Assembly (NCBI RefSeq): GCF_900141985.1
Contig: NZ_FQZK01000008.1
Location: 1 to 64,000, forward strand
Reading direction: 5' to 3'
Length of the DNA stretch: 64,000 bases
From: Nocardiopsis flavescens
GTDB lineage: Bacteria > Actinomycetota > Actinomycetes > Streptosporangiales > Streptosporangiaceae
Positions within the stretch are counted from its first letter, which is position 1; each line of letters begins with the position of its first letter. Below are positions 38,987-59,171 of this stretch, piece by piece. Below the pieces are notes generated by a model that saw nothing but the letters and a program-made list of their open reading frames with translations, was not told the DNA's origin and ran no database searches. A program made the position numbers and the translations under genes.

Positions 38987-40816
38987 ATGCCGCACGACAC
39001 CGCGGAGCTCGCGCTCGCCATCGTGGGCCTGGGGCCGCGCGGGCTGGCGGTCCTCGAACGCCTGGTCGCCAACGCCCGCGCGCACCACCGGACCGTGGCC
39101 CTGCACGCCGTCGACCCGTACCCGCCCGGCGCGGGGCGGGTCTGGCGCGTGGACCAGTCGCCCCACCTGCTCATGAACACCGTCGCCGCCCAGGTCACCG
39201 CCTTCACCGACGCCGGCCTCACCATGGCGGGACCGGTGGAGCCCGGCCCCTCCCTCCACGCGTGGGCGCGCGGCAGGGGGGACGCCCCGGACGCCGACGG
39301 GTACCCGACGCGCGCCCTCTACGGCCGCTACCTCACCGACGTCTTCGCCCGGGTGGTCGCCCGCGCCCCCGCACACGTACGCGTGCACGTCCACCGGGCC
39401 CGGGCGGTCGCCCTGCACGGCGACGCGGGCCCGCAGGTGCTGGTGCTCGACGACGGCCGCAGGCTGGCCGGGCTGGACGCGGTCGTCCTGTGCCAGGGGC
39501 ACACGGACGCATCCCCCGATCCGCGGGAGGCGGCCCCGGCGGGGGCCGGGGGGCGGCTCCACGTGCCGCCGGCCAACCCCGCCGACACCGACCTGTCGGA
39601 CGTCGCCCCCGGCGAGACCGTCATCCTCCGGGGCCTGGGACTGGCCTTCTTCGACCACATGGCGCTGCTCACCGAGGGCCGCGGAGGAGTCTACGAGCGC
39701 CGCGGAGGCCGGCTGGTGTACCGCCCCTGCGGTGCCGAACCCCGCCTGGTGGCGGGTTCCCGGCGCGGCATCCCCCACCGCGCCCGGGGGCGCGACCAGA
39801 AGGGCCCCTCGGCGCGCCACCGGCCCCGGCTGCTGCCCCCCGGGCGCGTCCTGGGCCTGCGCGAACGCGCCCAGGGCCCGCTGAGCCTGCGGGCGGACCT
39901 GTGGCCGCTCATCGCCCGGGAGGTCGAGGCCGTCCACTACGGCGCGCTGGCGGCGCGCCGCGGAGGCGACGGCGCGTCCCTGGCCGACGCCTACGCGTCC
40001 GCGCCCACCCGCGAGCGGCGGGAGGACGTCCTGTCCCGCGCGGGGATCACCGGGCGCTGGGACTGGAACCGCCTCTGCCGCCCCTCTCCGACCGGCGGCG
40101 GCCCCGCCTCCCACCGCGCCCGGCTGCTGGACCACCTGCGCCGGGACGCGGCCTCCGCCCGGGGCGGCAACGTCGACGACCCGGTCAAGGCCGCCCTGGA
40201 CGTGCTGCGCGACCTGCGCAACGAGATCCGGGGGGCCGTCGACCACCGGGGCCTGACCGGCGCCTCGCACCGCGACGACCTCTACGGGTGGTTCACCCCG
40301 CTCAACGCGCACCTGTCCATCGGCCCGCCGCTGTCGCGGGTGGAGGAGATGGCCGCGCTCATCGAGGCCGGGGTACTCGACGTCCTGGGTCCGGGGATGC
40401 GCGTGGGCGCGCACGCGACCGGGTTCACCGCCCGTTCGTCCCTCGGGGAAAGCGTCACCGCCCGGGTCCTCGTCGAGGCCCGCCTGCCCGAACCCGACCT
40501 GGGCCGTACGGCCGACCCCCTGCTGCGGCACCTGACCTCGACCGGCGCCGGCGCGCCCCACCGGGTGCCGACCCCCGGGGGCCCCGCGCACGTGAGCGGC
40601 GGCCTGGACGTCACCGGGCGCCCGCAGCGGCTGGTCGACGCCCGCGGGCGGGCCCACCCGCGCCGGTTCGCCTTCGGCGTCCCCACCGAGGGCGCGCACT
40701 GGGCGACGGCGGTCGGTGCCCGCCCCGGGGCGGACTCGGTGACCCTGGCCGACGCCGACGCGATCGCCCGCGCCGCCCTGGCCCTCGCCCCCGCACAACG
40801 GAAGGCCGACCCGTGA
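38987..40816 (+). CDS. FAD/NAD(P)-binding monooxygenase, CreE-like (aspartate to nitrosuccinate)
   Basis: 609 residues. It begins 'LALAIVGLGPRGLAVLERLV' with the flavin fingerprint G14-x-G16-x2-G19, followed by 'VDPYPPGAGRVWRVDQSPHLLMNTVAAQVTAF', the pattern of the FAD-NAD(P)-binding family PF13454. CreE of cremeomycin and FzmM of fosfazinomycin are of this type; they oxidise L-aspartate to nitrosuccinate with NADPH and oxygen. The decisive context is the next gene, which overlaps by four bases (GTGA) and encodes a fumarase-superfamily lyase like CreD/FzmL. Many PF13454 proteins have unknown roles, so the assignment rests mainly on the pair. It should be cytoplasmic and supply nitrite for the facing biosynthetic genes. 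Confidence 0.82.
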   Translation: MPHDTAELALAIVGLGPRGLAVLERLVANARAHHRTVALHAVDPYPPGAGRVWRVDQSPHLLMNTVAAQVTAFTDAGLTMAGPVEPGPSLHAWARGRGDAPDADGYPTRALYGRYLTDVFARVVARAPAHVRVHVHRARAVALHGDAGPQVLVLDDGRRLAGLDAVVLCQGHTDASPDPREAAPAGAGGRLHVPPANPADTDLSDVAPGETVILRGLGLAFFDHMALLTEGRGGVYERRGGRLVYRPCGAEPRLVAGSRRGIPHRARGRDQKGPSARHRPRLLPPGRVLGLRERAQGPLSLRADLWPLIAREVEAVHYGALAARRGGDGASLADAYASAPTRERREDVLSRAGITGRWDWNRLCRPSPTGGGPASHRARLLDHLRRDAASARGGNVDDPVKAALDVLRDLRNEIRGAVDHRGLTGASHRDDLYGWFTPLNAHLSIGPPLSRVEEMAALIEAGVLDVLGPGMRVGAHATGFTARSSLGESVTARVLVEARLPEPDLGRTADPLLRHLTSTGAGAPHRVPTPGGPAHVSGGLDVTGRPQRLVDARGRAHPRRFAFGVPTEGAHWATAVGARPGADSVTLADADAIARAALALAPAQRKADP

Positions 40817-42195
40817 ACCCGAGCCCCGACAGCGGCCTGCTCTCCCCCGTGTACGCGGGGACCCCCGTGGAGGAGGCGGTCGGCGACACGGCGTGGCTGC
40901 GCGCCCTGCTGGAGGCCGAGGCCGCGCTCACCCGCGCCCAGGCGGGCCTGGGCACGGTGCCCGCGCACGCCGCGGAGACCGTCACCGCGGTCGCCCGCTC
41001 CGTCCGCCTCGACGTCCGGGAGATCGCGCTGGCCTCACGGGAGAGCGCCAACCCGGTGATCGCCGTGGTGGGCGCGCTGACCCGGGCGGTGGCCGAGCAC
41101 GACGCCGAGGCCGCCGAGTACGTGCACCGCGGGTCGACCAGCCAGGACGTCTTCGACACGGCGGCGATGCTCGTGTGCTCGCGGGCCGTGCGGCTCGTGG
41201 TCGCCGACCTCGGACGCACCGCGGACGCCCTGGAGGAGCTGGCCCGCGCGCACCGCGACACGCCGATGGCGGGGCGCACGCTCGCCCTGCACGCGGTGCC
41301 CACCACCTTCGGGCTCAAGGCGGCCGGCTGGCGGCAGTCCGTGCGCGACGCCGCCGAGCGGCTGGGCGCGGTGCGCACGCCGGTCTCCCTGGGCGGTGCC
41401 GCCGGGACGCTCGCCGGATACCTGGAGTACGCGGGCGGGCAGGATCCCGGCGGGTACGCCGAGCGGCTGACCGCCGCGTACGCGCGGGAGACGGGGCTCG
41501 ACGTCCCGGCGCTGCCCTGGCACGCGCTGCGCACCCCCGTGACCGACCTGGGATCGGCGCTGTCCTGCACGGCCTCGGCCCTGGGCAAGATCGCCGCTGA
41601 CGTGCAGGTCATGGTCCGCACCGAGATCGGCGAGGTCGGCGAACCGCCGGTGGCCGGGCGGGGCGCGTCGTCCGCGATGCCCCACAAGCGCAACCCGGTG
41701 CTGGCGACGCTGATCCGCTCGGCCGCGCTGAGGGTCCCGGCCCTGGCGTCGGTCCTGCACCAGTGCGCGGTGTGCGAGGACGAGCGGTCCGCCGGCGCCT
41801 GGCACGCCGAGTGGGGGCCGCTGCGCGACTGCCTGCGGCTGGCGGGCGGCGCCGCGCACGCCTGCGCCGAACTCGCCGGCGGCCTGGTGGTCCACGCCGA
41901 CCGGATGCGGGCCAACCTGGACCGGACCGCGGGGGCGGTGGTGACCGAGCGCGTCGCCGCCGCCCTGGCTCCGCTGCTGGGCAGGGCCGCCGCCAGGGAG
42001 GTGGCGGGAGGACTGGCGCAGCGGGCCGCCGGGGGCACACGCCCGGCCGACCTGCTGGCGGAGGCGACCGCCGGTGCGCTGTCCCCGGAGCGGATCGCCG
42101 ACCTCCTGGACCCGACCGCCTACACCGGGGCGGCCGGGCACCTCGTCGACCGGGCATTGGAGGACGGGCCGCGCCCGGACCCACCGGTGCGCTGA
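40813..42195 (+). CDS. Fumarase/adenylosuccinate lyase-superfamily lyase, CreD-like nitrosuccinate lyase
   Basis: 460 residues of the aspartase/fumarase superfamily. Conserved region 1 is 'HRGSTSQDVFDTA' (105-117), region 2 'GRTLALHAVPTTFGLKAAGW', and the signature loop 'GASSAMPHKRNPV' (284-296) holds the catalytic Ser. By itself it resembles 3-carboxy-cis,cis-muconate cycloisomerase, but no other protocatechuate gene is present. CreD in cremeomycin synthesis is of this type and splits nitrosuccinate to fumarate and nitrous acid. The GTG at 40813 overlaps the CreE-like stop and has GGAAGG eight bases before it. A strong hairpin follows the stop. Confidence 0.85.
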   Translation: MNPSPDSGLLSPVYAGTPVEEAVGDTAWLRALLEAEAALTRAQAGLGTVPAHAAETVTAVARSVRLDVREIALASRESANPVIAVVGALTRAVAEHDAEAAEYVHRGSTSQDVFDTAAMLVCSRAVRLVVADLGRTADALEELARAHRDTPMAGRTLALHAVPTTFGLKAAGWRQSVRDAAERLGAVRTPVSLGGAAGTLAGYLEYAGGQDPGGYAERLTAAYARETGLDVPALPWHALRTPVTDLGSALSCTASALGKIAADVQVMVRTEIGEVGEPPVAGRGASSAMPHKRNPVLATLIRSAALRVPALASVLHQCAVCEDERSAGAWHAEWGPLRDCLRLAGGAAHACAELAGGLVVHADRMRANLDRTAGAVVTERVAAALAPLLGRAAAREVAGGLAQRAAGGTRPADLLAEATAGALSPERIADLLDPTAYTGAAGHLVDRALEDGPRPDPPVR

Positions 42196-42255
42196 CCCGG
42201 CGCGCGGCGGCGCGCGCCGCGGCCCGGGGGCCCGCGGTGCGCACCGCACCGGAAG

Positions 42256-42282: not shown

Positions 42283-43086
42283 TCACAGGGGTTTGCGCCC
42301 CTGGACGGAGTAGGTCACGCAGGAGCAGGCCCGGAACGAGGGGTCGGCCAGCAGGTCCCGCACCCGGGCCAGCTCGCCGTCGGTCATCCCCTCCCGCACG
42401 AACGCGTCGCGCAGGTGGCGGGTGTGGTGCGAGATCAGGTGGACCCCGGCGGAGCCGGCGTCCCACTGCTCCAGGTGCGGGTGCGCGTCCACCTCCACCA
42501 GCCCCGCCCGGCGCATGGCCTCGGCGGCCCCGCGCCCCCAGGCCGGGTCGGCCCCGGCCCGCTCCATCAGCCGGACCTTGGCGTCCAGGAACCGCTCGTA
42601 CAGCGCCCGGGCGCCAGCGTCGGGCATGAGCAGGGAGGGTCCGTAGGTGATGTCGAACTCGTCCAGCTGGAGCACGCCGCCCGGCTTGAGGGCGCGCACC
42701 AGCCGGTCCAGGACGCGGAGCCGCTCGGGCAGGTGGAGCAGCACCAGGCGGGAGTGCACGAGGTCGAAGGCGCCCTCGGGCAGCGGATCCCGCACGATGT
42801 CGTGCCGCAGCACCTCCAGGCCCTCGGCGGGGGCGATGTGGTCGGGCTTGACGTCGGTGGCGGTCACCGAGCCGCCGGGGGCGACCCGGCGGGCCAGCCA
42901 GTGGGCGACGCTGCCGCCCCCGGCCCCCACCTCCAGGCAGCGCCAGCCCGGCCCTACCCCGGTCTCCGCGAGTCTGCGGGTGGTCAGCGGGTCGTAGGCG
43001 GCGGCCAGGAAGCGGTGCTGGTCGTGCGCGTTCCTGTTGTGGTTGTCGAAGACGTAGCCGGGTACGGCGGTGGCGGTGTCCGTCAT
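42283..43086 (-). CDS. SAM-dependent methyltransferase
   Basis: 267 residues of the class I methyltransferase fold. Motif I is 'CLEVGAGGGSVAHWLA' (about 50-65), followed by 'VTATDVKPD', 'EGAFDLVHSRLVLLHLPERLRVLDRLVRALKPGGVLQLDEFD' (motifs post-II and III). It resembles UbiE/COQ5-like small-molecule O-, N- or C-methyltransferases. The ATG overlaps the ligase stop as ATGA. It is the last gene of the minus-strand biosynthetic array, so it probably methylates an intermediate or the final product. Confidence 0.9.
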   Translation of the reverse strand: MTDTATAVPGYVFDNHNRNAHDQHRFLAAAYDPLTTRRLAETGVGPGWRCLEVGAGGGSVAHWLARRVAPGGSVTATDVKPDHIAPAEGLEVLRHDIVRDPLPEGAFDLVHSRLVLLHLPERLRVLDRLVRALKPGGVLQLDEFDITYGPSLLMPDAGARALYERFLDAKVRLMERAGADPAWGRGAAEAMRRAGLVEVDAHPHLEQWDAGSAGVHLISHHTRHLRDAFVREGMTDGELARVRDLLADPSFRACSCVTYSVQGRKPL

Positions 43087-44687
43087 CGGAGGCCTCCTGA
43101 GAGTAGGGTCGGTCGGCCGCGGACCGCGTCGGCGGCCATCCGGGTCAGGGTGTCCGTGCACACCTTCCCGGTGGGGCCGAGCGGCAGGGCGGGCAGGAAC
43201 ACCACGTGCTCGGGCAGGGCGCGCACGTCCACGCCGTGCCCCTCGCGCAGGTGGGAGAGCAGTTCGCCGGGCGAGGGCGGGTCCACCCCCGGGAGCGGGC
43301 AGACGCAGGCGCACACGCGCTCGCCCAGGTCCGGGTCGGGCACCGGCACGCACTGGGCCTCGGCCAGGGCGGGGTGGGCGGTCAGGGCGCGCTCCACCTC
43401 GGCGGGGAAGAGCGTGACGCCGCCGCGGATGACGCTGCGGCGCAGCCGGTCGACCACCCGCAGGGTGCCGTCGGCATCGATCCGGCCCAGGTCGCCGGTA
43501 CGCACCCACCCCCCGGGCGTGCGGCGCCGCGCGTCCAGCACGGGGTCGGCGACGTGGCACAGGGGCGTCATCGGCCCCCGGGCGAGGATCTCCCCCGTCT
43601 CCCCCGGCGGCAGCGGACGCCCCAGCCGGTCGCACACCCGGATCGAGCACACGTCCGGGTCGGGCCGCCCGGCCACCCCCGGCTCCCAGGCGGCGGGATC
43701 GTCCGCGGTGTGGCAGTTGACCCCGTCGGTGGACCCGTAGACGTTGACCACGGGCCGCCCGAAGCGCTCCTCGCACAGGTCGCGCACCTCCCGGTGCAGC
43801 GGCGCGCCGCTGGAGACCAGGGCCCGCAGCGAGGAGGTGTCGGCCTCCCCCCGCGCCAGGGCGACCCGCCGCAGCATGGTGGGCACCCCGGCCAGGTGGG
43901 TGGGCCGGTGCAGGCCGACGGAGCGCAGCAGCGCGTCGGGGTCGAACTCCCCCGGGACGATGAGCGTCGCGCCGAGCCGCACCAGGGACACCAGGCCCAG
44001 CGACCCGAACGAGGAGGCCAGCGGGACCGGGAGCAGCAGGCGGACGTCCCCCCCGCCCAGGACGGCCCGGGCGTAGGCGCCGCGGCCCCCGGCCATGGCG
44101 TTGTGTCCGTAGGCGATCATGGTCGGCTCGCCCTCCGACCCCGAGGAGACGAGGATGCGGGCGGGCGAGTCCGCGTCGGGGGCGGCCGGCCCGGGGACCC
44201 GCGCGTCCGCGTACGGGCCGTCCGGGTCCAGGGCGCCGGGCCGCGCGCGCAGCACCGGCGCGCCCCGCACGTCCTCGCGGTCGGTGACCACCGCGGCGGC
44301 CCGCGACCGTGTGAGCAGGGAGGACACGTCGGCGGCGGAGCGGCCGTGGGGCACCGGCAGGGAGACCGCGCCCAGCGCGGCGACGGCGAGTTCGACGGCC
44401 AGGGCGTCGCGGCCGTCGGGCAGCAGCAGGGCGACGACGTCGCGCTCGCCGCACCCGGCGGCGCGCAGCAGGGCGGCGGCCCGGCCGACCCGCGCCGCCA
44501 GCCCGGCGCGGTCCTCGCTCCCGCGCGCGTCCGCCACCGCCTCGCGGCCGGGGTCCTCCCGCACCCGGTCCAGGAACAGGGAGTACAGGTCCCGCCCGGG
44601 ACACGGGCCCTCCCGCACCCAGCGGGCGCGCAGCATCGCCGGGACGAGGTCGGTGAGGGTCAGTCCCGTCGAGGACGTCCAGGTCAT
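43083..44687 (-). CDS. Acyl/aryl-adenylate-forming enzyme, possible diazotase
   Basis: 534 residues of the ANL superfamily. The usual phosphate-loop motif (S/T-S/G-S/T-T-G-x-P-K) appears as 'VSSGSEGEPTM', with the Lys replaced by Thr. 'VNVYGSTDG', 'GGWVRTGDLGRIDADG' and 'VVDRLRRSVIRGG' (A7-A8) are normal, and the C-terminal catalytic Lys is in 'LGPTGKVCTDTL'. It may activate an aromatic or other carboxylic acid. In cremeomycin synthesis an enzyme of this superfamily, CreM, instead couples nitrite to an arylamine with ATP. Given the CreE/CreD-like pair, the same role is possible here. It has its own ribosome site (GGAGGAACG) and a 109-base gap upstream. Confidence 0.85.
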   Translation of the reverse strand: MTWTSSTGLTLTDLVPAMLRARWVREGPCPGRDLYSLFLDRVREDPGREAVADARGSEDRAGLAARVGRAAALLRAAGCGERDVVALLLPDGRDALAVELAVAALGAVSLPVPHGRSAADVSSLLTRSRAAAVVTDREDVRGAPVLRARPGALDPDGPYADARVPGPAAPDADSPARILVSSGSEGEPTMIAYGHNAMAGGRGAYARAVLGGGDVRLLLPVPLASSFGSLGLVSLVRLGATLIVPGEFDPDALLRSVGLHRPTHLAGVPTMLRRVALARGEADTSSLRALVSSGAPLHREVRDLCEERFGRPVVNVYGSTDGVNCHTADDPAAWEPGVAGRPDPDVCSIRVCDRLGRPLPPGETGEILARGPMTPLCHVADPVLDARRRTPGGWVRTGDLGRIDADGTLRVVDRLRRSVIRGGVTLFPAEVERALTAHPALAEAQCVPVPDPDLGERVCACVCPLPGVDPPSPGELLSHLREGHGVDVRALPEHVVFLPALPLGPTGKVCTDTLTRMAADAVRGRPTLLSGGLR

Positions 44688-44796: not shown

Positions 44797-46443
44797 TCAC
44801 CGGCCGCTCCCCCCGCCCGCGGGGGCGAACGTCCACGGGGCGCGGGGCAGGGCGACCCCGTGGACTGTCGTGAAGGCCGCGGGGAAGGCCGCGGCCGCGG
44901 CCACCGGGTCGGCCGCCGCGGGGGTGCCGGTCCGGGGCAGGTGGGCGGTGCCCCGGCCGGCCGCGCGCAGCAGCCGGGCGGCGTCCACCAGGGCGGTGCG
45001 GGCGCGGGCCCCGGTGCCCGCGCGGGAACGCAGCAGCAGCCCGGCCAGCGCCGCCTCGGCGGCGAGCAGCCCGCCGAGCACGTCGGTGAGCGTGACCAGG
45101 GACGGCGCGGGCCCGGCCCCGTCCGCCAGCAGGTGGGCGACCCCTCCGTGGGCCTGCACCGGGAAGTCGGTGGCGGGGGTGCCGGGCGCGGGCTCCTCCC
45201 CGGCCCACCCGTCGGCGTGGACGTGCACCAGGCCGGGGGCGCGGGCGGCGAGGCCGTCGGCGCCCAGGCCGAACCGCTCGGCCCGGCCGGGCGGCCAGTT
45301 GTACAGGAACACGTGCGCCCCGGCGGCCAGCGCGGCGGCGGCGCGGCGCCCCGCGGCGGTGCCCAGGTCGTGCTCGACGGCGCCCTTGCCGTGGTTGAGG
45401 GCGGCGAAGCGGGCGGAGAGCCCGCCGGCCAGGGGCGGGACGCCGCGCATCGGGTCGCCGCCGGGCGGCTCCACGCGCACGGTGTCGGCGCCCAGCAGGG
45501 TCAGCAGCAGGCCGGCCAGCGGTCCCTGGACCCGGTTGGTGGCCTCCACCACCCGCAGTCCGGCCAGGGGTCCCCGCCCCGGGGGCGGCACGGGCGGCAG
45601 GGCCCCGGCGGGCCCGGTCGGGCCCAGCCGCCACGGCGACTCCGGCGCCCGCTCGCGGACCTCCTCCGGCGGGCGCAGCGGGACCGCGCCCACCCCGCAG
45701 GCGCGGGCCGTGCGGGCGGTGTCGGCGAAGGGCAGGGCGGCCGGCACCGCGAACAGGGCGGCGGGCAGGGGGCACTCGGCGGTGGCGAAGCGGCGCTGGA
45801 AGGGCGCCCACCCGGCGGCGATGGCCTCCCGGGGCGCGCCCAGCGCCTCCCAGAACCGCAGCCAGGCGTCGGCGTCCAGGGTCTCGACCTCGAAGCGCAC
45901 CCCGTCGGCGGAGCGGAACGGCGGCGGCTGCCCGGGGACGGTGCCCGTGCCGGGGCCGGGCGCGCTCTCCCGGCGCGCGGCGGCCTCGGCGGCGGCGTAG
46001 GGGGCGACGGCGAGCAGGGCCGCCCCCGCCACCGACACCGAGGCCCGCAGCGCGTGCCCGCCCCGGTCCAGGGCCAGGGCCGCCGCCGCGACCGCCTGGG
46101 ACGCCAGCACCCCGGCGCACACCGACGCGTAGTCCACGGGCAGGAACCGGGGGCCGCCCCGGGCCCGCCCGTGCAGGTGGGCCAGGCCGCAGGCGGCCTG
46201 GACGGCGCGCTCGTCCTCCAGGCCGGCGCCGGGCTCCGACCACGCGATGTCGCACCCCGCGCCCGTCCCCTCCAGGCGGAGCCGCCCGGCGAGGCCGGGC
46301 GGGGCGGTGCCGCCGGGCTCCTCCTCGACCGCGCAGCCCAGCGCCCGCAGCCGGGAGACCGCGACCCGCAGCGGCGGGGCGTCCCCCGCCGCCCGGACGG
46401 CGGTACCGGCCAGCGGTGGGGCCGCCGCGGTCGCGGCGGTCAC
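44797..46443 (-). CDS. CaiB/BaiF CoA-transferase-like protein with degenerate N-terminal half
   Basis: 548 residues. The C-terminal half (about 290-548) is a compact family III CoA-transferase: 'LAGLRVVEATNRVQGPLAGLLLTLLGADTVRVEPPGGDPMRGVPP', 'FAALNHGKGAVEHDLGTAAGRRAAAAL', 'LYNWPPGRAERFGLG', and 'ATDFPVQAHGGVAHLL' with the Asp nucleophile position. The N-terminal half ('CDIAWSEPGAGLEDERAVQAACGLAHLHGR') is Ala-rich and resembles a decayed second copy of the fold. The GTG at 46443 overlaps the ligase stop (GTGA). Its neighbours on both sides are adenylating enzymes, so it probably handles a CoA ester made by one of them. Whether it transfers CoA or only binds an acyl group is open. Confidence 0.8.
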   Translation of the reverse strand: MTAATAAAPPLAGTAVRAAGDAPPLRVAVSRLRALGCAVEEEPGGTAPPGLAGRLRLEGTGAGCDIAWSEPGAGLEDERAVQAACGLAHLHGRARGGPRFLPVDYASVCAGVLASQAVAAAALALDRGGHALRASVSVAGAALLAVAPYAAAEAAARRESAPGPGTGTVPGQPPPFRSADGVRFEVETLDADAWLRFWEALGAPREAIAAGWAPFQRRFATAECPLPAALFAVPAALPFADTARTARACGVGAVPLRPPEEVRERAPESPWRLGPTGPAGALPPVPPPGRGPLAGLRVVEATNRVQGPLAGLLLTLLGADTVRVEPPGGDPMRGVPPLAGGLSARFAALNHGKGAVEHDLGTAAGRRAAAALAAGAHVFLYNWPPGRAERFGLGADGLAARAPGLVHVHADGWAGEEPAPGTPATDFPVQAHGGVAHLLADGAGPAPSLVTLTDVLGGLLAAEAALAGLLLRSRAGTGARARTALVDAARLLRAAGRGTAHLPRTGTPAAADPVAAAAAFPAAFTTVHGVALPRAPWTFAPAGGGSGR

Positions 46444-50373: not shown

Positions 50374-51518
50374 GGTTTCCTCCCGAGGGCGAACGCGCGG
50401 ACCGCGGAGACGATCTGCTCGACGCGGGCGTCGGCCAGGTGCGGGTACAGGGGCAGGGAGATGTTGCGGCGCGCCGCGTCCCGGGCGCGGGGCGGGGCCC
50501 CCGCCGCGGGGGCGTACGGGGCGAAGGCCGGCTGCTCGGGCAGGGTCCGCGGGTAGTAGACGTGGGTGTCCACCCCCGCGGCGGCCAGGTGGGCGCGCAG
50601 TCCGTCGCGGTCCTCGCACAGCAGCGTGTACACGTAGGGGAAGCGGCCGTCCCCGCCGGCGGGGGGCGCGGTGACGCCCGCCCCGGCCAGGTCGGCGAAG
50701 GACCGCGAGTAGTGGTCGCAGATGGCGGTGCGGCGGGCCACGCGCTCCTCCAGGCCCGCCAGGCGGTGCAGCTGGAAGGCGGCCATGACCTCGTCGAACC
50801 GGCTGTTGTGGCCGACGTGGTGGTGCAGGAAGCGGTTGCGGCCGTCCTGGCCGTGGTTGCGCAGCATCCGCACCCGTCCGGCGAGGGCGGCGTCGTCGGT
50901 GAGCACCATCCCGCCCTCCCCGGGCATACCGAACACCTTGACCTGGACGAAGGAGTAGACGCCGGCGTCCCCCCAGCGCCCGGCGGGCGTGCCGCGGAGC
51001 ACGCCGCCCTGGGCGAGGGCGGAGTCCTCGACGAGCCGCAGGCCGGTCCGGGCGGCCAGGTCGCGCAGGCGGGGCATGTCGGCCATGAAGGAGAACATGT
51101 GCGCGGGCATCAGCGCGCGGGTGCGGTCGGTGACCAGCTCCTCGGCGCGGGCGGGGTCCAGCGTGAGGGTGGCCGGGTCGATGTCGGCGAAGACCGGGAC
51201 GGCCCCCACCGACAGGACGGTGCTCGCCAGCGGGGCGCACCCGAAGGCGGGCACGATCACCTCGTCGCCGGGGCCCACGCCCAGGGCGGACAGGACCAGG
51301 GTGAGGGCGGAGGTCCCGCTGGAGCAGGCGACGGCGTCGGCGGAGCCCAGGCGGGTGCGCAGCGCGTCCTCGAACCGGGCGGTACGCCGCCCCAGGATGA
51401 ACTTCTGCTCCGGGTCGGTGCCGACCTCGTACAGCGCCTCCAGCAGGGCCTCGCGGTCGGCCTCGAAGAGGTCGGGCGCGAAGAACGGGACGGCGGGGCG
51501 CTCGGCGGTCACGGTCAT
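50370..51518 (-). CDS. DegT/DnrJ/EryC1/StrS-family aminotransferase (second copy)
   Basis: 382 residues. The PLP-enzyme pattern is 'CSSGTSALTLVLSALGVGPGDEVIVPAFGCAPLASTVLSVGAVPVFADID', 'VEDSALAQGG' with the PLP-ring Asp, and the Lys in 'YSFVQVKVFGMPGEGGMV'. These enzymes transaminate keto-sugars, cyclitols, or in AHBA synthase make an aromatic amino acid by dehydration. It overlaps the next and previous genes by four bases (ATGA). It shares only the general family pattern with 51515-52720, so the pair is not a recent duplication and probably serves two steps or acts as partners. Confidence 0.9.
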   Translation of the reverse strand: MTVTAERPAVPFFAPDLFEADREALLEALYEVGTDPEQKFILGRRTARFEDALRTRLGSADAVACSSGTSALTLVLSALGVGPGDEVIVPAFGCAPLASTVLSVGAVPVFADIDPATLTLDPARAEELVTDRTRALMPAHMFSFMADMPRLRDLAARTGLRLVEDSALAQGGVLRGTPAGRWGDAGVYSFVQVKVFGMPGEGGMVLTDDAALAGRVRMLRNHGQDGRNRFLHHHVGHNSRFDEVMAAFQLHRLAGLEERVARRTAICDHYSRSFADLAGAGVTAPPAGGDGRFPYVYTLLCEDRDGLRAHLAAAGVDTHVYYPRTLPEQPAFAPYAPAAGAPPRARDAARRNISLPLYPHLADARVEQIVSAVRAFALGRKP

Positions 51519-52815: not shown

Positions 52816-53346
52816 TCAGACGCCCAGCAGCGGGATGTCGTTCTTGCCGAGGTGGTAGTCGCGCACCGCGGCGACCAGCTCGCCGACGCTGAGGTGGCCG
52901 TCGTTGTCGGTGTCGATCTGGCTGAAGGCCTCGCCGGCCTGGTCGGCGCTCAGACCGATCGCCGCGAACCAGCGCTCCAGCTCGACCGGGCTGATCTCGC
53001 CGTCGCCGTCGGTGTCGGCGATGCCCATGATGGCCTGGATGGTGGGCTGGAGCACCTCGGAGAAGCCGGCGTTGCCGCGGCTGACGATCTCGCTCTCGGC
53101 GGCGCTGATGAAGTCGTCCTTGCTCATCTGCTCGGTGCCGGCGGCCCGGGCGAGGCGGTCGAACAGGCCGAGGTAGGCGGCGCGCAGGCCGGCCGCGCCC
53201 GGACCCTGGGGGTCGGCGCCGAAGCGGTCGAGGATGCCCTGGATCTCCTGCTCGAAGTCGGAGCGCTCGATCACGCCGTTGCCGTTGTGGTCCCAGAGGT
53301 TGAAGCGCTCTTCGAGGCGGCCGTTGGCCTTGGTGGCGACGCTCAT
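52816..53346 (-). CDS. EF-hand calcium-binding protein
   Basis: 176 residues with a four-EF-hand layout like calerythrin or sarcoplasmic Ca-binding proteins. Canonical loops are 19-31 (DHNGNGVIERSDF), 111-122 (DTDGDGEISPVE) and 145-156 (DTDNDGHLSVGE); the second hand near 70-82 lacks the acidic ligands and is degenerate. No signal peptide, so cytoplasmic. It probably buffers or senses Ca2+. Its place inside a biosynthetic array is unusual. The gene has a strong ribosome site (AGGAGAGACC), a T-run terminator upstream and a palindrome downstream, so it is a separate transcript. A TAATAT-like -10 lies in the AT-rich upstream stretch. Confidence 0.92.
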   Translation of the reverse strand: MSVATKANGRLEERFNLWDHNGNGVIERSDFEQEIQGILDRFGADPQGPGAAGLRAAYLGLFDRLARAAGTEQMSKDDFISAAESEIVSRGNAGFSEVLQPTIQAIMGIADTDGDGEISPVELERWFAAIGLSADQAGEAFSQIDTDNDGHLSVGELVAAVRDYHLGKNDIPLLGV

Positions 53347-53480: not shown

Positions 53481-53501
53481 ATCATCGAAATTCGCAAAAC
53501 T

Positions 53502-53972
53502 TTATATCGGACATTCTTCGACATTTTCTGCGAAGGGCGCGGAGAAGAGGGCGGCCACGGCCCGCGCACTCCCCTGCCGGAAGACCACGCGCTCCTCGGG
53601 ACGCAGCTCCAGGTCGCGTCCGGTGGGAACGGGGTCGGCGTGGATCAGGACGTTGTAGTGGTTGGGCGTGTGGCAGGCGTCGAACCCCAGCACCACGCCC
53701 ACCCGGCGGGGGCCGATCCACACCTCGTCGCCGCGGTCCAGGACCCCTGCGGCGGTGATCTCGGCGAAGCCGAGGAACCCCACGCGGTCGATCCGCGCCC
53801 CCTCCGCGGTCTCGGTGTGGTCGGTGGCGACCAGCTCGTGCACCTCGCCCGCGCGCACGCAGCGGCTCGCGAACGGCTCCACCCGCATGCCCCGGTCCGT
53901 CCTGCGGTGCACCAGCACCTTGACCAGGACGGCGGTCACCGGGCGCTTGGCCCCGTCCTCGTACGGGTTCAC
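53502..53972 (-). CDS. Unknown small protein of the biosynthetic array
   Basis: 156 residues without a motif I recognise. Visible features are 'AVLVKVLVHRRTDRGMRVEP', 'VHELVATDHTETAEGARIDRVGFLGFAEITAAGVLDRGDEVWIGPRRVGVVLGFDACHTPNHYNVLIHAD'. The pattern of short beta-strands suggests a small barrel or double-psi fold, and the conserved-looking 'NHYNVLI' with one Cys and several His could form a metal or substrate site, but this is only impression. The GTG at 53972 overlaps the Gfo/Idh stop (GTGA), so it is translated together with that dehydrogenase. It is last gene of the first sub-operon. Good candidate for a new family member. Confidence 0.78.
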   Translation of the reverse strand: MNPYEDGAKRPVTAVLVKVLVHRRTDRGMRVEPFASRCVRAGEVHELVATDHTETAEGARIDRVGFLGFAEITAAGVLDRGDEVWIGPRRVGVVLGFDACHTPNHYNVLIHADPVPTGRDLELRPEERVVFRQGSARAVAALFSAPFAENVEECPI

Positions 53973-54886
53973 CCCGCCACCCTCTCCCGGCGCTCGGCGC
54001 GGTAGGCCTCGTCCACCAGGCGCAGCGCCGACACCCCGGCGCCGTCGCCGGTCCGCCACGCGCGCACCCGGGCGGCGAAGTCGGCGGCGACGCCCTCGTA
54101 CTCGTGCCACAGCGACTCCTTGAAGGCGGGGCGCCCGGCCAGCAGGTCGGCCGTCCACACCCGCCCGTCCGAGGTGCGCACCTCGACGTCCTTGCACTCC
54201 CCGGGGTGTGACCAGTCCAGCAGCACCCGGGCCCGAGCGGGCCCGGCCGCCAGGGCGATGTCCGCCCGCCGGTCCACGCCCGCGGCGTCGCGCTCCACCC
54301 GGGCCCCGACCACCTCGGCCCGGCCCAGCAGGGATTCCACCAGGTCGAAGGCGTTGGGCCCGTTGTCGGCGACGCAGCCGCCGCCGCACCGGGACGGGTC
54401 CAGGTACCAGGTGTCGTCCCCGGCGTGCTCCTCGATCCGCTCCAGGTAGCGCACGGTCACGTCCGTCACCGTGCGGCCGGCGACCCGCTCCCGCAGCTCC
54501 GCGAACCGGGAGTTGTAGCGGCGGTGGAACGCCGTGAACAGCGGCACCCCCCGCTCCCGGGCCAGGGCGTCCAGGGCCTCGCCCTCGGCCAGGTCCAGGG
54601 CCAGCGGCTTCTCCGCGCACACCGCGGCGCCGGCGGCGATCGCGTCCGCGCAGATCCGGGCGTGCACGTCGTTGGGCGCGGTGACCACGACCGCGTCCGG
54701 CCGCTCCCGCTCCAGCATCCGGACGTGGTCGGTGTAGCCGACCGCGCCGGGCGGCGGGGACGCGATCCGGGAGGGTGCCAGGTCGCACACGGCCGCCAGG
54801 TCCCACTCCGGGGAGGACGCCAGCGCCTCCAGGTGGAACCGGGAGATCACCCCCAGCCCCACCACTCCCACGCGCAGCGGGCTCAT
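53969..54886 (-). CDS. Gfo/Idh/MocA-family dehydrogenase A
   Basis: 305 residues. The NAD(P) motif is 'RVGVVGLGVISRFHLEALASS' and 'CAEKPLALDLAEGEAL' carries the family E-K-P signature. The C-terminal substrate domain has 'GGGCVADNGPNAFDLVESLLG', where Asp/Asn replace the usual D-x3-H pattern. Members oxidise or reduce hydroxyl groups of inositols, sugars and sugar acids. ATGA and GTGA overlaps tie it to its neighbours. It probably works with the TIM-barrel isomerase and second Gfo/Idh enzyme on a polyol-like precursor that the DegT enzymes then aminate (inference). Confidence 0.9.
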   Translation of the reverse strand: MSPLRVGVVGLGVISRFHLEALASSPEWDLAAVCDLAPSRIASPPPGAVGYTDHVRMLERERPDAVVVTAPNDVHARICADAIAAGAAVCAEKPLALDLAEGEALDALARERGVPLFTAFHRRYNSRFAELRERVAGRTVTDVTVRYLERIEEHAGDDTWYLDPSRCGGGCVADNGPNAFDLVESLLGRAEVVGARVERDAAGVDRRADIALAAGPARARVLLDWSHPGECKDVEVRTSDGRVWTADLLAGRPAFKESLWHEYEGVAADFAARVRAWRTGDGAGVSALRLVDEAYRAERRERVAG

Positions 54887-56022
54887 CGGACCTCCCCCAG
54901 GACCAGGGGGGCGGCCAGGCCGGTCCGCCCCGCCAGGTCGGCGAGTTCGGCGTAGAGGCCCGCGGCGAGGGGGACGCCCCGCTCGCGCCGCTCGCGCGCC
55001 AGGTGGTACTCGTGCCATCCGGGGTAGCGGACCGGCGCCGCGGGGTCGGCGGGCGGGCAGTCCAGCACCGTGCCGAACAGCTCCCGCGCGTCCCCCAGGG
55101 CCCCCTCGCGCAGGGCGTCGGGGGCCAGGGCCAGCAGGAGGTGGCCGATGTCGTCGTCCCTGCCGCCGGGACCGCCGTCCCCGGCCAGGGCCTGCGGGGC
55201 GGGGCCGCGGCCGGAGCCGGAGACGACGGCGGACAGCACCTCCACCAGCAGGCCGAGGCCGAACCCCTTGTACCGTCCGGGCTCCCCGCCGAGCCACATC
55301 AGGTGGGCCCGCCCCGCGTCGAACTCGGCCGGGTCCGTGACCGGGGCTCCGCGGTCGTCGCACAGCAGCCCCTCCGGGACCGGCCGCCCCTCCCGGGCGG
55401 CCTGGCGGATGCGCCCGGTGGGGGCCGCCGTGGTGCTCATGTCCAGCAGGAAGGGCGGGTGCCCCCCGGCGGGGGCGGCGGCGCTGAGCGGGTTGGTGCC
55501 CAGCAGGGCCGCGGCCCCGCCCGGGGGCCGGGCGATGCGCTGCCCGCCGCAGTTGCTCGCGACCAGGCCGACCATGCCGCGTTCGACCGCCCGCAGCGCG
55601 TGGTACCCGGCGCAGCCCAGGTGGGTGCCGCCGCGCACCGCCACCACGCCGACGCCGTGGCGCTCGGCGCGGGAGGCGGCCAGCTCCATCGCCTCCGAGG
55701 CCGACCACAGCCCGAGGGCGCGGCGGGCGTCGAGCAGCACGGCGGCCCCCAGGTCGGTGACGACCCGGGGCTCGGCGTGCGGGTCGGCCCGGCCCTCGTC
55801 GAGCAGCGGCAGGTAGAGGCGGGTGAGGTTGGCGGCCCCGTGGGAGTCCATCCCGGTCAGGTCTCCGTGGCACAGGGCGCGCGCCGAGGCGGCGGCCCGC
55901 TCCGGGTGCAGGCCCCGGTCCCGGAAGACGGCGGTGAGGAAGGAGAGCAGGGAGTCGTGGTCGGCCAGGACGGGCGGCCCCGCCGGGGCGGCCCCGGGCG
56001 GTTCGTGCGAGAGGGTGGTCAC
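54883..56022 (-). CDS. LDH2/malate dehydrogenase-like NAD(P) oxidoreductase
   Basis: 379 residues of the LDH2 (YlbC/AllD/ComC/DpkA) family. 'AASARALCHGDLTGMDSHGAANLTRLYLPLL' has the conserved D-x2-G-x-D-S-H-G motif with catalytic His, 'GVGVVAVRGGTHLGCAGYHALRAVERGMVGLVASNCGG' binds NAD, 'GTNPLSAAAPAGGHPPFLLDMST' is typical, and 'YKGFGLGLLVEVLSAVVSG' closes the site. Family enzymes act on 2-hydroxy acids, sulfolactate, ureidoglycolate or cyclic imines. The GTG at 56022 overlaps the peptidase stop (GTGA). It may reduce or oxidise an alpha-keto or imino acid in the pathway. Confidence 0.9.
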   Translation of the reverse strand: MTTLSHEPPGAAPAGPPVLADHDSLLSFLTAVFRDRGLHPERAAASARALCHGDLTGMDSHGAANLTRLYLPLLDEGRADPHAEPRVVTDLGAAVLLDARRALGLWSASEAMELAASRAERHGVGVVAVRGGTHLGCAGYHALRAVERGMVGLVASNCGGQRIARPPGGAAALLGTNPLSAAAPAGGHPPFLLDMSTTAAPTGRIRQAAREGRPVPEGLLCDDRGAPVTDPAEFDAGRAHLMWLGGEPGRYKGFGLGLLVEVLSAVVSGSGRGPAPQALAGDGGPGGRDDDIGHLLLALAPDALREGALGDARELFGTVLDCPPADPAAPVRYPGWHEYHLARERRERGVPLAAGLYAELADLAGRTGLAAPLVLGEVR

Positions 56023-57299
56023 CGGTCTCCGTTCGTCTCGTCGGTGAAGGCGGTCAGCAGGCGGGCCACCGTGTCGGCGAACCCGTCGAGGTCGGACAGC
56101 CGGACGCGCTCGGCGTCGCCGTGCGCCCCGTCGGCGGCCAGGTCCCCCGGGCCCAGCACGACCGTGCAGGCGTCGGGGACCCCGGCCATCCAGATGGCAT
56201 CGCAGGTGAAGGCGGGCTCGTCCGCCGGCCAGGGCGGCACCCCGGCGCGGCGCAGCAGGCCGCGGCCCCAGGGGTCGCGGTCGTCCAGGACCGGCAGCCC
56301 CCGCTTGGGCCAGTCCAGGCGGGTCAGGGCGCGGGCGTCGGCGGCGGTGCGGGCGAACAGCGCGGTGCAGGCGAAGGAGGCGGTGAACTCCTCCAGCGCG
56401 GTGTCGAACGCGCCGGCCACCGCCCGTTCCAGGTCCCGGCCCGCGCGGGCGTCGGCGTAGGAGAGGTTGAACAGCAGGTCCCCGCTGCCGTACACCCGGT
56501 TGTGCAGGGTGCCGGTGTGCAGTCCGGCCACGCACACCGCCCCGTCGCGGGCGTGCGCGTCCAGGGCCCGGCCCATCCGGTGGGCCAGGAACCCCAGCAG
56601 GACCGAGGCGTTGTGCCCGGTGTGGGGGCGGTCGTCGATCGCGTCGTCGCCGCGCACCGACACCCGGGCGGTCATGGACGCGGTGGAGCGGGTGAGGTAC
56701 CGCCCGGAGGTGGGCTCGCAGAACACGTTGAGGCGGCCGGTGTACCCGCGGGCGACGAGGGGGCGGGTGCCCAGGACGCCCATGGCGCCGCCCTCCTCCC
56801 CCGCGACGGCCTGGACCAGGACCGCCGTGTCGCGGCCCAGGCGGGGCGAGCGCTCCAGGGCGGCGCGCACCCCCGCCAGCAGCGCGACCGCGGGCCCCTT
56901 GGCGTCGACGGCTCCGCGCCCGCGGACGAGGTCCCCCTCGCGGGATGCGGGCGGGCCGCCCGCCACGGTGTCCAGGTGCACGTTGAACATGGCGGTGCGC
57001 CCGTGCGGCACGGTGTCGGGCCCCAGGCGCAGCACCAGGCTGGGCTGGCACTCCAGGAAGCCAGGGTCGGCGGCGGCCTCGCGCACCGCGGCGGGCACCC
57101 CGGGCGGGCGCAGGTCGCCGGGGCCTGCGGGGGCGTGGTGCACGGTGCGAAAGCCCAGCGGCGCCGCGGCCCGGGCGTAGTCGTCCTGGGCCTGGCGCAG
57201 GCGGGGGCGCGGACCGCCCGGGCCGACCTCCAGCGGGCCGGCGGTGGGCGTCTCCAGCAGCCGCATCAGCAGGGAGAGGTCGCCGTCGGTGAGGGTCAC
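56019..57299 (-). CDS. M20-family metallopeptidase/deacylase homologue
   Basis: 426 residues. The zinc-site motifs are 'MFNVHLDTVAGG' (His and Asp), 'VRGRGAVDAKGPAVALLAG' (bridging Asp), 'AGEEGGAMGVLGTRPLV' (catalytic Glu pair) and 'FCEPTSG'. This is the ArgE/DapE/CPG2 layout that cleaves N-acyl groups from amino acids. In a biosynthetic array it may remove a protecting N-acyl group, as ArgE/LysK-type enzymes do in carrier-protected pathways. The GTG at 57299 overlaps the isomerase stop (GTGA). Confidence 0.88.
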   Translation of the reverse strand: MTLTDGDLSLLMRLLETPTAGPLEVGPGGPRPRLRQAQDDYARAAAPLGFRTVHHAPAGPGDLRPPGVPAAVREAAADPGFLECQPSLVLRLGPDTVPHGRTAMFNVHLDTVAGGPPASREGDLVRGRGAVDAKGPAVALLAGVRAALERSPRLGRDTAVLVQAVAGEEGGAMGVLGTRPLVARGYTGRLNVFCEPTSGRYLTRSTASMTARVSVRGDDAIDDRPHTGHNASVLLGFLAHRMGRALDAHARDGAVCVAGLHTGTLHNRVYGSGDLLFNLSYADARAGRDLERAVAGAFDTALEEFTASFACTALFARTAADARALTRLDWPKRGLPVLDDRDPWGRGLLRRAGVPPWPADEPAFTCDAIWMAGVPDACTVVLGPGDLAADGAHGDAERVRLSDLDGFADTVARLLTAFTDETNGDR

Positions 57300-58174
57300 C
57301 GGACCCCCTCCGCGCTCCAGACGCGGTGCGCCAGCTCCTCCAGGCGCCGCCCGTAGTCCACGAACGCGGCGACGTCGCCGCGGCCGGGGTCGCCGCCGCG
57401 GGCGAGCAGGTGGGGGCGCAGGTGCAGGTGGGGCTCGATGGACAGGGCGCCCCGGTAGCCGTGCCCGGCCAGGATCCGCAGGCACTCCTCGACCCCGGCC
57501 TCGCCCCGGCCGGGCGGGACGTAGGCGGTGTCGCCGCCGGGGGTGCGGACCGCGTCCTTGATGTGGACGTGGGCCACGTGCGGGGCGATCCGGCGCAGCA
57601 TGGCGGGGCCGTCGTAGCCGTGGGCGACGCCGTTGCCGGTGTCGAACAGCAGGCGCAGCGCCGGGCTGTCGGCGTGGGCGAGCAGGTCCAGGGCGCGGTC
57701 GGCGTCCTCGCCCGCCCACCCGGCGCAGTTCTCGTGCACCAGGAGCAGGCCGGCGTCCTCGGCGCGGCGGGCCAGCTCGCGCACGCGGGCGCGGGCCGTA
57801 CGCCCCCACTCCGCCGCGGTCAGGCCGCCGGAGGGATAGGACATGATCCGGACGGTGCGCGTCCCCAGCAGGGCGCAGCGCCGGACCAGCGCGTCGAGTT
57901 CGGCCACGTCCGCGGCGAAGTCGCCGGTGGCGGGGCGGGACCAGTCGCCGATCTTGGCGGCGACGGCGACCACCGTCGCACCGGCGTCCCGGATGCGCGC
58001 GGCGGTCCGCACCACCGCGTCCTCGGGCAGGGCCGCGACGGGCACCCCGTTGAGGGTGCGCAGCTCCAGCAGGTCCCAGCCGAGCGCGCGCAGGGCGTCG
58101 AGCTGGCCGTCCAGCCCGGGGGCGGCCTCGTCGCCGATCCCCGCGGGGCGGGGGCGTTCAGGCGCCGACGACAC
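57296..58174 (-). CDS. TIM-barrel sugar phosphate isomerase/epimerase (IolE-like)
   Basis: 292 residues of the AP-endonuclease-2-like barrel. Metal-site pieces are 'LLLVHENCAGW' (Glu), 'LRLLFDTGNGVAHG' (Asp), 'VAHVHIKDAVR' (His/Lys) and 'GALSIEPHLH' (Glu). Members include inosose dehydratase IolE and sugar epimerases. The GTG at 58174 starts 17 bases before the stop of the Gfo/Idh B gene. Together the two Gfo/Idh enzymes and this barrel look like inositol-type chemistry, which would supply a cyclic keto intermediate for the aminotransferases (inference). Confidence 0.88.
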   Translation of the reverse strand: MSSAPERPRPAGIGDEAAPGLDGQLDALRALGWDLLELRTLNGVPVAALPEDAVVRTAARIRDAGATVVAVAAKIGDWSRPATGDFAADVAELDALVRRCALLGTRTVRIMSYPSGGLTAAEWGRTARARVRELARRAEDAGLLLVHENCAGWAGEDADRALDLLAHADSPALRLLFDTGNGVAHGYDGPAMLRRIAPHVAHVHIKDAVRTPGGDTAYVPPGRGEAGVEECLRILAGHGYRGALSIEPHLHLRPHLLARGGDPGRGDVAAFVDYGRRLEELAHRVWSAEGVR

Positions 58175-59171
58175 TGCCCACCTCCTCCTCCAGGGCCCGG
58201 CGGGCGCACAGGTCCTTGGCCTCGGTGAGCAGCCGCACCGCCTCCACGTGCACGGGCAGGTCGCCCAGGTCGCGGCCGGGGCGGGAGTAGCGGGCGTAGC
58301 AGCGGCGCAGGAACGCGGTCAGGGCGTCGTCGGTGAACACCGACCGGGAGGGCTCGCGCCCGCGGGCGGCCACGGCGAGCTGCGCGGTGTGGTCGGCGTC
58401 GCTGCACGGGTAGTGGCCGGTGAGGACGGCCTCGTCGAACTCCAGCACGATGCGGCGCTCGCGCAGCGGCGCGGTGAGGTCGGACTCGATGCGGGTGAGC
58501 ACCCCCGTGTGGTGCACCAGGTCCAGGCGGGCGGCCCCCAGGCCGGGCAGGCGCACGCCGTCCACGGCCATGTCGTCGAGCCCGGCGGAGGCCACCTCGG
58601 CGTCCCCGGCGAGCACGACCGCGACGGCGAGGGCGTGCGGGACCTCCACGTCGAACGCGGTGGGGTGCCCGGTGGTCTCCAGGCTCCGGGTGAACCGCGG
58701 CTTGTGCTGGACCACCGTGAGCGAGCGCAGCCGCCCGAAGGCCCCGGAGCGGCGGGCCGCCAGCAGCCGCGCGCTCAGCGCGCTGGCCGTCCACGGCGTG
58801 GCCACGGCCAGGCGCAGGCCCCAGCGGCGGCGCAGGCGCGCGATGGCGGCCAGCTCGGCCAGGTCGAGGGCGAGGGGCTTCTCGACGATGACCATGCGGT
58901 AGCCCAGGCGGGCGAGCCGCTCCAGGGGTTCCGCCCGCAGGTGGGGCGGGGTGCAGAGGTGGACCACGGTGCGCCGGGGCGGGAGGCGGCGCGCGGCCTC
59001 CTCCAGGGAGGCCACGGCCGTCACCCCCTCGGCCCCTGTGCGCAGGGGGTCGTGGCCCATCACCGGACCCGGGGCGAAGAGGCGGCGGTCCGCCGCCCGC
59101 GCCTTGGCGAGCGACGGCGCGTGCAGCCCCCGTCCGGATCTCCCCAGGCCGACGATGAGGGTGTGCAGCAT
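58158..59171 (-). CDS. Gfo/Idh/MocA-family dehydrogenase B
   Basis: 337 residues. 'LIVGLGRSGRGLHAPSL' is the NAD(P) loop, 'VVHLCTPPHLRAEPLERLARLGYRMVIVEKPLALDLAEL' contains the E-K-P signature, and 'TAFDVEVPHALAVAVVLAG' provides D-x3-P-H in the substrate domain. It is not a close copy of the Gfo/Idh enzyme at 53969. It is the first gene of the minus-strand array; the ATG at 59171 has only a distant AAGGTG as ribosome site. An AT-rich gap upstream should hold the promoter. Confidence 0.88.
   Translation of the reverse strand: MLHTLIVGLGRSGRGLHAPSLAKARAADRRLFAPGPVMGHDPLRTGAEGVTAVASLEEAARRLPPRRTVVHLCTPPHLRAEPLERLARLGYRMVIVEKPLALDLAELAAIARLRRRWGLRLAVATPWTASALSARLLAARRSGAFGRLRSLTVVQHKPRFTRSLETTGHPTAFDVEVPHALAVAVVLAGDAEVASAGLDDMAVDGVRLPGLGAARLDLVHHTGVLTRIESDLTAPLRERRIVLEFDEAVLTGHYPCSDADHTAQLAVAARGREPSRSVFTDDALTAFLRRCYARYSRPGRDLGDLPVHVEAVRLLTEAKDLCARRALEEEVGSVVGA

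Follow-up and report, generated by a model that had tools for sequence, protein, structure and literature searches.

Organization of the locus

The window analysed here is a 64,000-nucleotide stretch of Nocardiopsis flavescens DNA (contig NZ_FQZK01000008.1, positions 1 to 64,000), and our subject is an overlapping gene pair within it, creE and creD, together with the long minus-strand gene array that faces the pair. Genes of the window were called with a codon-usage gene caller and annotated with Pfam and NCBIfam profiles (Table 1). A CMD/AhpD-domain gene, creE and creD form a row on the plus strand, in which 13 bp separate the CMD gene from creE. A preliminary description of this DNA had reported creE and creD as a PF13454 protein overlapping a fumarase-superfamily lyase, and both are present as described, with an overlap of 4 bp (40813-40816). 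The array that it had noted on the minus strand is likewise real, although it contains 15 genes and not 14; these span 42283-59171, with 11 of the 14 junctions overlapping in the gene caller's output. The two aminotransferases (both DegT), two adenylating enzymes (both of the ANL superfamily), UbiA protein, methyltransferase and dehydrogenases (two Gfo/Idh and one Ldh_2) listed previously are all confirmed. To these can be added a CoA-transferase III-like protein, an amine-oxidase-type flavoprotein, an EF-hand protein, a DUF6917 protein, an M20 peptidase and a xylose-isomerase-like TIM barrel. As already stated in the preliminary description, polyketide synthases (PKS) and nonribosomal peptide synthetases are absent from the Pfam/NCBIfam annotation of the 15 array genes.

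A very probable aspartate-nitrosuccinate pair

The CreE protein has a single strong PDB match, 8cp2 (E 9e-182), with 56.3% identity across 581 aligned positions; this structure is that of the L-aspartate N-hydroxylase of Streptomyces sp. V2 (excerpts of PMC10404684). Ten of 12 checked sites are kept, namely the nine core sites (R13, N62, R266, R276, R409, R412, N413, R416 and R577) and R593, while V571 and R597 of 8cp2 are both replaced by alanine. The roles of the Arg and Asn residues of the substrate site and of the flavin Asn are taken from the same excerpts. CreE-like proteins were retained for counts when shorter than 800 aa and aligned over more than 400 aa. The genome encodes a second strong PF13454 protein (L067; G000:C45, 9165-11036; G, C and L numbers are our labels for genomes, contigs and loci), which was rejected as a second CreE because six of the nine core sites are changed in it. 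It is 39% identical to CreE and has an altered substrate site, and no CreD match occurs within its 20-kb stretch.

The CreD protein passes the nitrosuccinate lyase model NF052556 with 693 bits against a cut-off of 650. Its best PDB match is CreD 5xny (518 bits), followed by PcaB (260 bits), and it is 64.3% identical to 5xny versus 39.9% to PcaB 1re5. Fifteen of 16 checked ScCreD sites are identical (E49, N93, H118, T122, S123, L170, H253, S302, S303, P306, K308, N310, R341, W346 and H347), the exception being V96, which is replaced by isoleucine; residue roles follow excerpts of PMC13411527, where a figure legend lists a CMLE (of the PcaB type) as capable of nitration. As nearly all of these sites are common to PcaB, and as CMLE is listed as nitrating, the residues indicate an intact enzyme rather than which enzyme it is, and the assignment to CreD over PcaB depends on the family cut-off and the tree. 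L170, initially considered as a mark of CreD, was dropped, since most PcaB-like rows also have leucine there. A phylogeny of the proteins had been named in the preliminary description as a check on its pathway call. In a midpoint-rooted FastTree phylogeny of 83 rows, which comprised CreD-like proteins of less than 620 aa and more than 330 aligned aa with the references 5xny and 1re5, and in which several inner supports are weak, the window CreD groups on the side of CreD 5xny and not on that of PcaB. Matches to the CreD model below the cut-off (E <= 1e-150) were rejected as nitrosuccinate lyases: many of these, at about 500-590 bits, lie on the PcaB side of the tree and some on the CreD side. 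Because of this mixture only over-cut-off CreD matches are counted below, and the genomes G025 and G029 are not counted as CreD-bearing.

Both genes are intact in the window and in its close relative G035, with dN/dS values of 0.37 and 0.33 between the two, compared to 0.21-0.39 for ten array genes and 0.41 for the CMD gene (NG86). The earlier assignment of the pair to the aspartate-nitrosuccinate pathway is therefore strong at the level of sequence (8cp2, NF052556, 5xny, residues and tree). We regard it as highly likely that creE-creD is a sound pair of this type, and it very probably makes nitrite from aspartate.

The array as a cluster family of its own

Of the 40 host-genus genomes, 21, the window's included, encode the DUF6917 domain, which served as a marker of the array. 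Array regions were obtained from 19 of the other 20, the twentieth having split fragments only. All 15 genes are matched in 17 of these 19 regions, and the remaining two, with 13 genes each, end at contig ends. Outside the genus the array is complete in three genomes from other genera or families (G233, G332 and G283) and partly visible in two more (G384 and G282). A scan of named genomes with the DegT2 query recovered 216 stretches with 167 relatives, and the best 80 were kept as loci, some of which are cut by contig ends. These 80 loci carry the array, whole or in part, in more than ten genera, including Nocardiopsis, Streptomonospora, Actinomadura, Streptosporangium, Nonomuraea, Streptomyces, Kitasatospora, Lentzea, Actinokineospora, Saccharothrix, Amycolatopsis, Crossiella, Saccharopolyspora and others. 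The recurrence of the same genes together in other genomes shows that the array is no chance row.

The search for the array elsewhere, which the preliminary description had also put forward, thus finds it in the host genus, in other genera and at the 80 named loci, mostly without the pair beside it. CreE and CreD are absent beside the array in all 17 uncut same-genus regions from other genomes. Descent of the array as an aspartate-nitrosuccinate cluster is ruled out, since it stands alone in most genomes examined, and the array is an orphan cluster family of its own. The earlier view that it is "built on" the aspartate-nitrosuccinate pathway finds no support in these 17 regions or at the 80 loci, where CreE and CreD are nearly or wholly missing (see below). 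The locus shares with the known systems CreE/CreD (cremeomycin), FzmM/FzmL and AzpE/AzpD the presence of both enzymes, overlapping genes and conserved catalytic residues, but the product genes of those systems are not recognised in the window array, which normally lacks the pair. No published description of the array was recognised from titles and abstracts, subscription journals lying outside this coverage.

A diazotase-branch ANL enzyme within the array

One of the two ANL enzymes (46440-48047; ANLd), which the preliminary description had recorded simply as an adenylating enzyme, stands out by its relationships. In a maximum-likelihood tree of 82 rows, 73 of them different (ANL proteins of at least 430 aa, with ANL2 calls of less than 700 aa), ANLd and 20 array orthologues are sister (100/99) to five ANL proteins encoded near CreE, directly beside it at L062, L063, L064 and L127 and one gene away at L126. 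These 26 rows are in turn sister (100/99) to 24 AvaA6-like rows, representing 15 different proteins, nine of which stem from 20-kb stretches around CreD-model matches. The other 32 rows, including the remaining ANL proteins of the same genome and ANL2, fall outside this diazotase branch. The residues H178, D300 and R354 (ANLd numbering) are present in all 50 branch rows (41 different) versus 1, 0 and 0 of the 32 others. Among 36 aligned array copies (out of 62 full-length array ANL proteins, the window included in the 36) they are found in 36, 36 and 35, respectively. When 19 further background proteins of 400-760 aa were brought in, a tree of 90 rows united all 43 rows having D300 and R354 in one clade with a support of 1.0, and none of the 47 others falls within it. 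These signature columns were chosen from the alignment, and they describe the branch and are no proof of function. The ATP-site residues E329 and K512 of ANLd are intact. Alignments inspected by eye show H178/D300/R354 in its four best PDB matches (9xb8, 9bq0, 8tf7 and 8ztz), which were deposited as FadD or AMP-binding proteins, while the malonyl-CoA synthetase 4fuq lacks them. ANL2 is without the signature and outside the branch in both trees.

ANLd can thus be placed, by sequence, in the ANL branch of AvaA6-like diazotases, where it belongs to a separate sub-branch. No AvaA6-like row reached the AvaA6 cut-off, so the name of the branch depends on similarity. The likeness to AvaA6/CmaA6 and CreM lies in the shared branch and the intact signature and ATP-site residues. 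The enzyme differs from AvaA6 in its sub-branch, in its identity of 24-28% to five AvaA6-like rows and in falling short of the model cut-off, and the ava cluster has PKS genes, which the window array lacks. We consider it more likely than not that the array does nitrite chemistry. The broader part of the earlier interpretation, a metabolite with a diazo or another N-N group that may be prenylated and methylated, gains separate support from this enzyme within the array.

Company of the sub-branch in other genomes

Among 394 genomes of the class, 31 encode a sub-branch ANL (E <= 1e-60) and 13 an over-cut-off CreD. The two occur together in seven of the 31 genomes, the window's among them, versus six of the 363 others (Fisher 1.2e-5, kinship ignored). 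In its own genome ANLd is the sole sub-branch member found among three candidates scored and lies four kb from creD, and a search with AvaA6 gave no match in this genome at E 1e-100.

The contigs of G348 and G110 that carry CreE and CreD also have a sub-branch ANL gene, immediately preceded by one for a DegT aminotransferase (L124/L213 = G348:C33; L212 = G110:C39). The G348 contig additionally encodes mevalonate-pathway enzymes, a type III PKS, a cupin, an O-methyltransferase and a vanadium chloroperoxidase-type protein. For the nap cluster, PMC11705231 proposes the putative aminotransferase NapB3 and the CreM homologue NapB4 as candidates for diazo formation. The G348 contig matches the outline of that cluster and, as far as its gene content goes, resembles a napyradiomycin/SF2415-type cluster for a diazo meroterpenoid. 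The window array likewise combines a DegT aminotransferase, a diazotase-branch ANL, and prenylation and methylation genes, but is without a type III PKS, a vanadium peroxidase and mevalonate genes; type III PKS and vanadium-peroxidase genes are present in L213. A diazotase cluster without nitrite genes of its own appears to be common, since 72 of 134 ava-type clusters lack avaE/avaD in the excerpted text of PMC10777205.

Sub-branch members were also encountered in several other settings. A second CreE/CreD cluster, in which the neighbour of CreE is a sub-branch ANL, is present in G035 and G015 (G035:C37, L062:239-11569 and L074:1608-13977; G015:C4, L063:96-11473) and includes a UbiA protein about 48% identical to that of the array. 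Further genes on G035:C37 encode enzymes of the methylerythritol phosphate pathway, a polyprenyl synthase, DAHP synthase and a chorismate-binding/amidotransferase fusion, and this second cluster looks like one for a prenylated arylamine-diazo compound. At L211, L214, L219 and L222, from four genomes of family f18, genes for a chorismate-binding-like protein, an ordinary ANL and a sub-branch ANL follow one another; CMD-like genes lie nearby, and the stretch contains no CreE/CreD match. L222, the annotated one of the four, also has an FAD monooxygenase and a class IV aminotransferase. At L205:7754-11248 (G384:C72) a sub-branch ANL, 81% identical to that of G006, adjoins a divergent CreD-like gene, which has proline in place of the L170 of other rows and is perhaps decaying.

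Proposed docking of creE-creD beside the array

In G035 the CMD gene, creE, creD and the methyltransferase gene follow each other in the same order as in the window (L061, found on another contig than the fetched array region). The 13-bp direct repeat CCGGTGCGCTGAC, of which the window has two copies only and none inverted, brackets creE-creD. The CMD gene also borders the array in some relatives without CreE and CreD. In G006 only 52 bp, without any gene, separate CMD from the methyltransferase gene; as the ANLd orthologue of G006 groups with that of G035, next to that of the window, loss of creE-creD in G006 is at least as likely as its never having been present.

A second probable case of docking is seen in Saccharothrix deserti, where ANL2, CMD and CreE genes lie in a row on one strand at the array end. 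This CreE keeps the nine core residues, and its called start overlaps the CMD frame by 4 bp. No CreD occurs within 4 kb past it; the genome has two CreE-CreD-type pairs elsewhere, both with a CreD under the cut-off. In the CreE tree the protein stands apart from the window CreE, so that the dockings in the two lineages look independent.

Over-cut-off CreD is found in four of the 40 host-genus genomes, all of which have DUF6917 (4/21 versus 0/19; Fisher 0.065). Fifty of the 80 array genomes were searched, and a CreD-model match at E <= 1e-150 was found in 22 and an over-cut-off match in 11; CreD and CreE counts over these 50 genomes are lower bounds, as only part of the candidates was scored, and the CreE search missed the array-end CreE of Saccharothrix deserti.

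Genes of the array

Table 1. Features of the plus-strand row, its flanking repeats and the minus-strand array; loci are the 80 named array loci.
Feature	Coordinates	Strand	Evidence and conservation
CMD/AhpD-domain protein, first of plus-strand row	38527..38973	+	PF02627 56 bits; CMD-like match in 32/80 loci
13-bp direct repeat CCGGTGCGCTGAC, left border of creE-creD	38962..38974	+	repeat search of window
CreE-type aspartate N-hydroxylase (nitrosuccinate synthase)	38987..40816	+	PF13454 146 bits; PDB 8cp2 E 9e-182
CreD-type nitrosuccinate lyase	40813..42195	+	NF052556 693 bits, cut-off 650
13-bp direct repeat, right border of creE-creD	42184..42196	+	repeat search of window
S-adenosylmethionine (SAM) methyltransferase	42283..43086	-	PF08241; 71/80 loci
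ANL2, second ANL ligase, acyl-CoA ligase type	43083..44687	-	PF00501; 54/80 loci
CoA-transferase family III-like protein, long N-terminal part	44797..46443	-	PF02515; 57/80 loci
ANLd, diazotase-branch ANL enzyme, proposed nitrite-activating diazotase	46440..48047	-	trees and H178/D300/R354; 75/80 loci
Flavin amine-oxidase/phytoene-desaturase-like oxidoreductase	48044..49387	-	PF01593; 76/80 loci
UbiA-family prenyltransferase	49381..50373	-	PF01040; 76/80 loci
DegT/DnrJ/EryC1 aminotransferase 2 (DegT2)	50370..51518	-	PF01041; 80/80 loci (search query itself)
DegT aminotransferase 1 (DegT1)	51515..52720	-	PF01041; 80/80 loci
EF-hand calcium-binding protein	52816..53346	-	PF13405; 71/80 loci
DUF6917 protein	53502..53972	-	PF21891 186 bits; 77/80 loci
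Gfo/Idh/MocA dehydrogenase B (GfoB)	53969..54886	-	best NCBIfam inositol 2-dehydrogenase, below cut-off; 75/80 loci
Ldh_2 malate/lactate-type dehydrogenase	54883..56022	-	PF02615; 76/80 loci
M20 peptidase/deacylase-like protein	56019..57299	-	PF01546; 73/80 loci
Xylose-isomerase-like TIM barrel	57296..58174	-	best NCBIfam inosose dehydratase IolE, below cut-off; 74/80 loci
Gfo/Idh/MocA dehydrogenase A (GfoA), first array gene	58158..59171	-	PF01408; 75/80 loci

Both aminotransferases keep the expected pyridoxal phosphate lysine, in the motif SFFPAK of DegT1 and SFVQVK of DegT2. The best PDB match of DegT1 is 2oga, deposited as a transaminase, which we take to be DesV, and the second is a glutamine-scyllo-inositol transaminase. 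The matches of GfoB to inositol 2-dehydrogenase and of the TIM barrel to inosose dehydratase IolE are far below the NCBIfam cut-offs. Taken together, these matches and the DegT lysines suggest an amine on a cyclitol- or sugar-like ring. The UbiA protein has visible Asp-rich stretches, DDVTGYRD and NDADGD, which are presumably its UbiA motifs.

The EF-hand protein belongs to the conserved gene set of the cluster and is duplicated in some genomes (L027 and L078). DUF6917 is accompanied by other array genes at every annotated locus; H22, C38, H45, C100, H101 and H105 are invariant across 42 aligned members, and this His/Cys set may be a metal site. The domain is not named in the literature searched.

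A proposed pathway and its alternatives

We propose that two units were joined here by evolution, namely the array and creE-creD. In the array, the dehydrogenases, the IolE-like TIM barrel and the two DegT enzymes would generate an amine on a sugar- or inositol-derived ring, perhaps later aromatised. UbiA would prenylate this ring, and the methyltransferase and acyl-activating enzymes would decorate the product. Isoprenoid-cyclitol hybrids involving UbiA enzymes are known or proposed for BE-40644 and ebo, according to excerpts of PMC5133447. The ebo cluster has in common with the array UbiA and a xylose-isomerase-like TIM barrel, and cyclitol-type chemistry of the ebo/BE-40644 kind is suspected for the array too, but a sugar phosphate cyclase (PF01761) is absent from its 15 genes and it has aminotransferases and ANL enzymes in addition. 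ANLd would activate nitrite as nitrosyl-AMP and pass it on to the amine, yielding a product or intermediate with a diazo or another N-N group. CreE would convert aspartate to nitrosuccinate, from which CreD would release fumarate and nitrite. In most genomes the array would have to obtain nitrite from elsewhere, and in this lineage a nitrite supply would have docked beside it. We assign a probability of about one half to this reading, an N-N cluster with creE-creD as its docked nitrite supply; for the narrower statement that the creE-creD of this lineage feeds the array, the evidence is about evenly balanced.

Several observations weigh against the proposal. The pair is convergent to the array and outside its operon, and it adjoins only two of 19 assessable same-genus arrays (the 17 uncut regions, the window and G035). 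At the 80 named loci, where little flanking sequence is often visible (57 of them show 1 kb or more past the last array match on the DegT2 side), CreE occurs in one and CreD in none, and neither was found in 20 array ends extended further outward. No over-cut-off CreD on an array contig in the 50 array genomes searched is closer than 285 kb, the remaining ones being on other contigs of mostly draft assemblies, where the distance to the array cannot be placed. A sub-branch ANL within 25 kb of an over-cut-off CreD on one contig is seen in only five of the 31 genomes, including the window's. On the AvaA6 equivalog model NF058622, ANLd scores 104.8 bits against a cut-off of 975 and is thus, by this measure, not AvaA6 itself; of the five CreE-neighbour ANL proteins, the three that were scored gave 83-88 bits. 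No enzyme with a published activity is among the sub-branch members placed by sequence, the rows compared not including CreM. The ANL copy of G332 matches positions 161-525 only and may be broken.

Some of these observations would fit an array that makes a prenylated aminocyclitol or amino-sugar without any N-N chemistry, with ANLd an ordinary acyl-activating enzyme and creE-creD an unrelated neighbour. The array is nearly always seen without adjoining CreE and CreD, the pair in the window is convergent to it, and the weak score of ANLd on the AvaA6 model, together with the acyl activation suggested by ANL2 and the CoA-transferase-like protein, points the same way. The branch placement and signature residues of ANLd, the CreE at the array end in Saccharothrix deserti and the co-occurrence of the sub-branch with CreD, kinship ignored, argue against it, and we consider this explanation rather unlikely. 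Less probable still is a traceless diazotisation, in which the diazotised amine would be replaced by hydride or another group, as by AvaA6/AvaA7, so that the final product has no N-N bond. In its favour are the sister relationship of the ANLd sub-branch to the AvaA6-like branch, the three dehydrogenases of the array (two Gfo/Idh and one Ldh_2) and the published AvaA6/AvaA7 pathway for avenalumic acid (PMC10777205, in excerpt); nothing specific in the array indicates a denitrifying step, although no search for an AvaA7 homologue was made. That creE-creD instead serves a free nitrite- or nitrosuccinate-derived product or an unlinked pathway, having been inserted by chance at the 13-bp repeats that bracket it, is improbable: the adjoining CMD and methyltransferase genes of G006, whose other CreE/CreD cluster is about 1 Mb away, would agree with it, but the proximity of creD to the only sub-branch ANL found in the genome and the negative AvaA6 search speak against it.

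The observation made in the preliminary description is thus confirmed and its interpretation partly supported, the proposed docking of a nitrite supply beside an independent array being our preferred reading. A broader generalisation, which we offer tentatively and think rather unlikely, is that a widespread family of clusters turns an inositol- or sugar-derived amine into isoprenoid-linked compounds with a diazo or another N-N group through a diazotase sub-branch distinct from AvaA6, with nitrite mostly from outside and with CreE or CreE-CreD docked at least twice independently. If this is true, the diazotase and its product would be easily overlooked in many actinomycetes, because nearly all copies examined have no CreE/CreD, the usual search bait, beside them. 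For isolation of the product, the natural start would then be the two lineages in which aspartate-nitrosuccinate genes have docked, and these would exemplify the addition of a nitrite supply to a pathway already in place.

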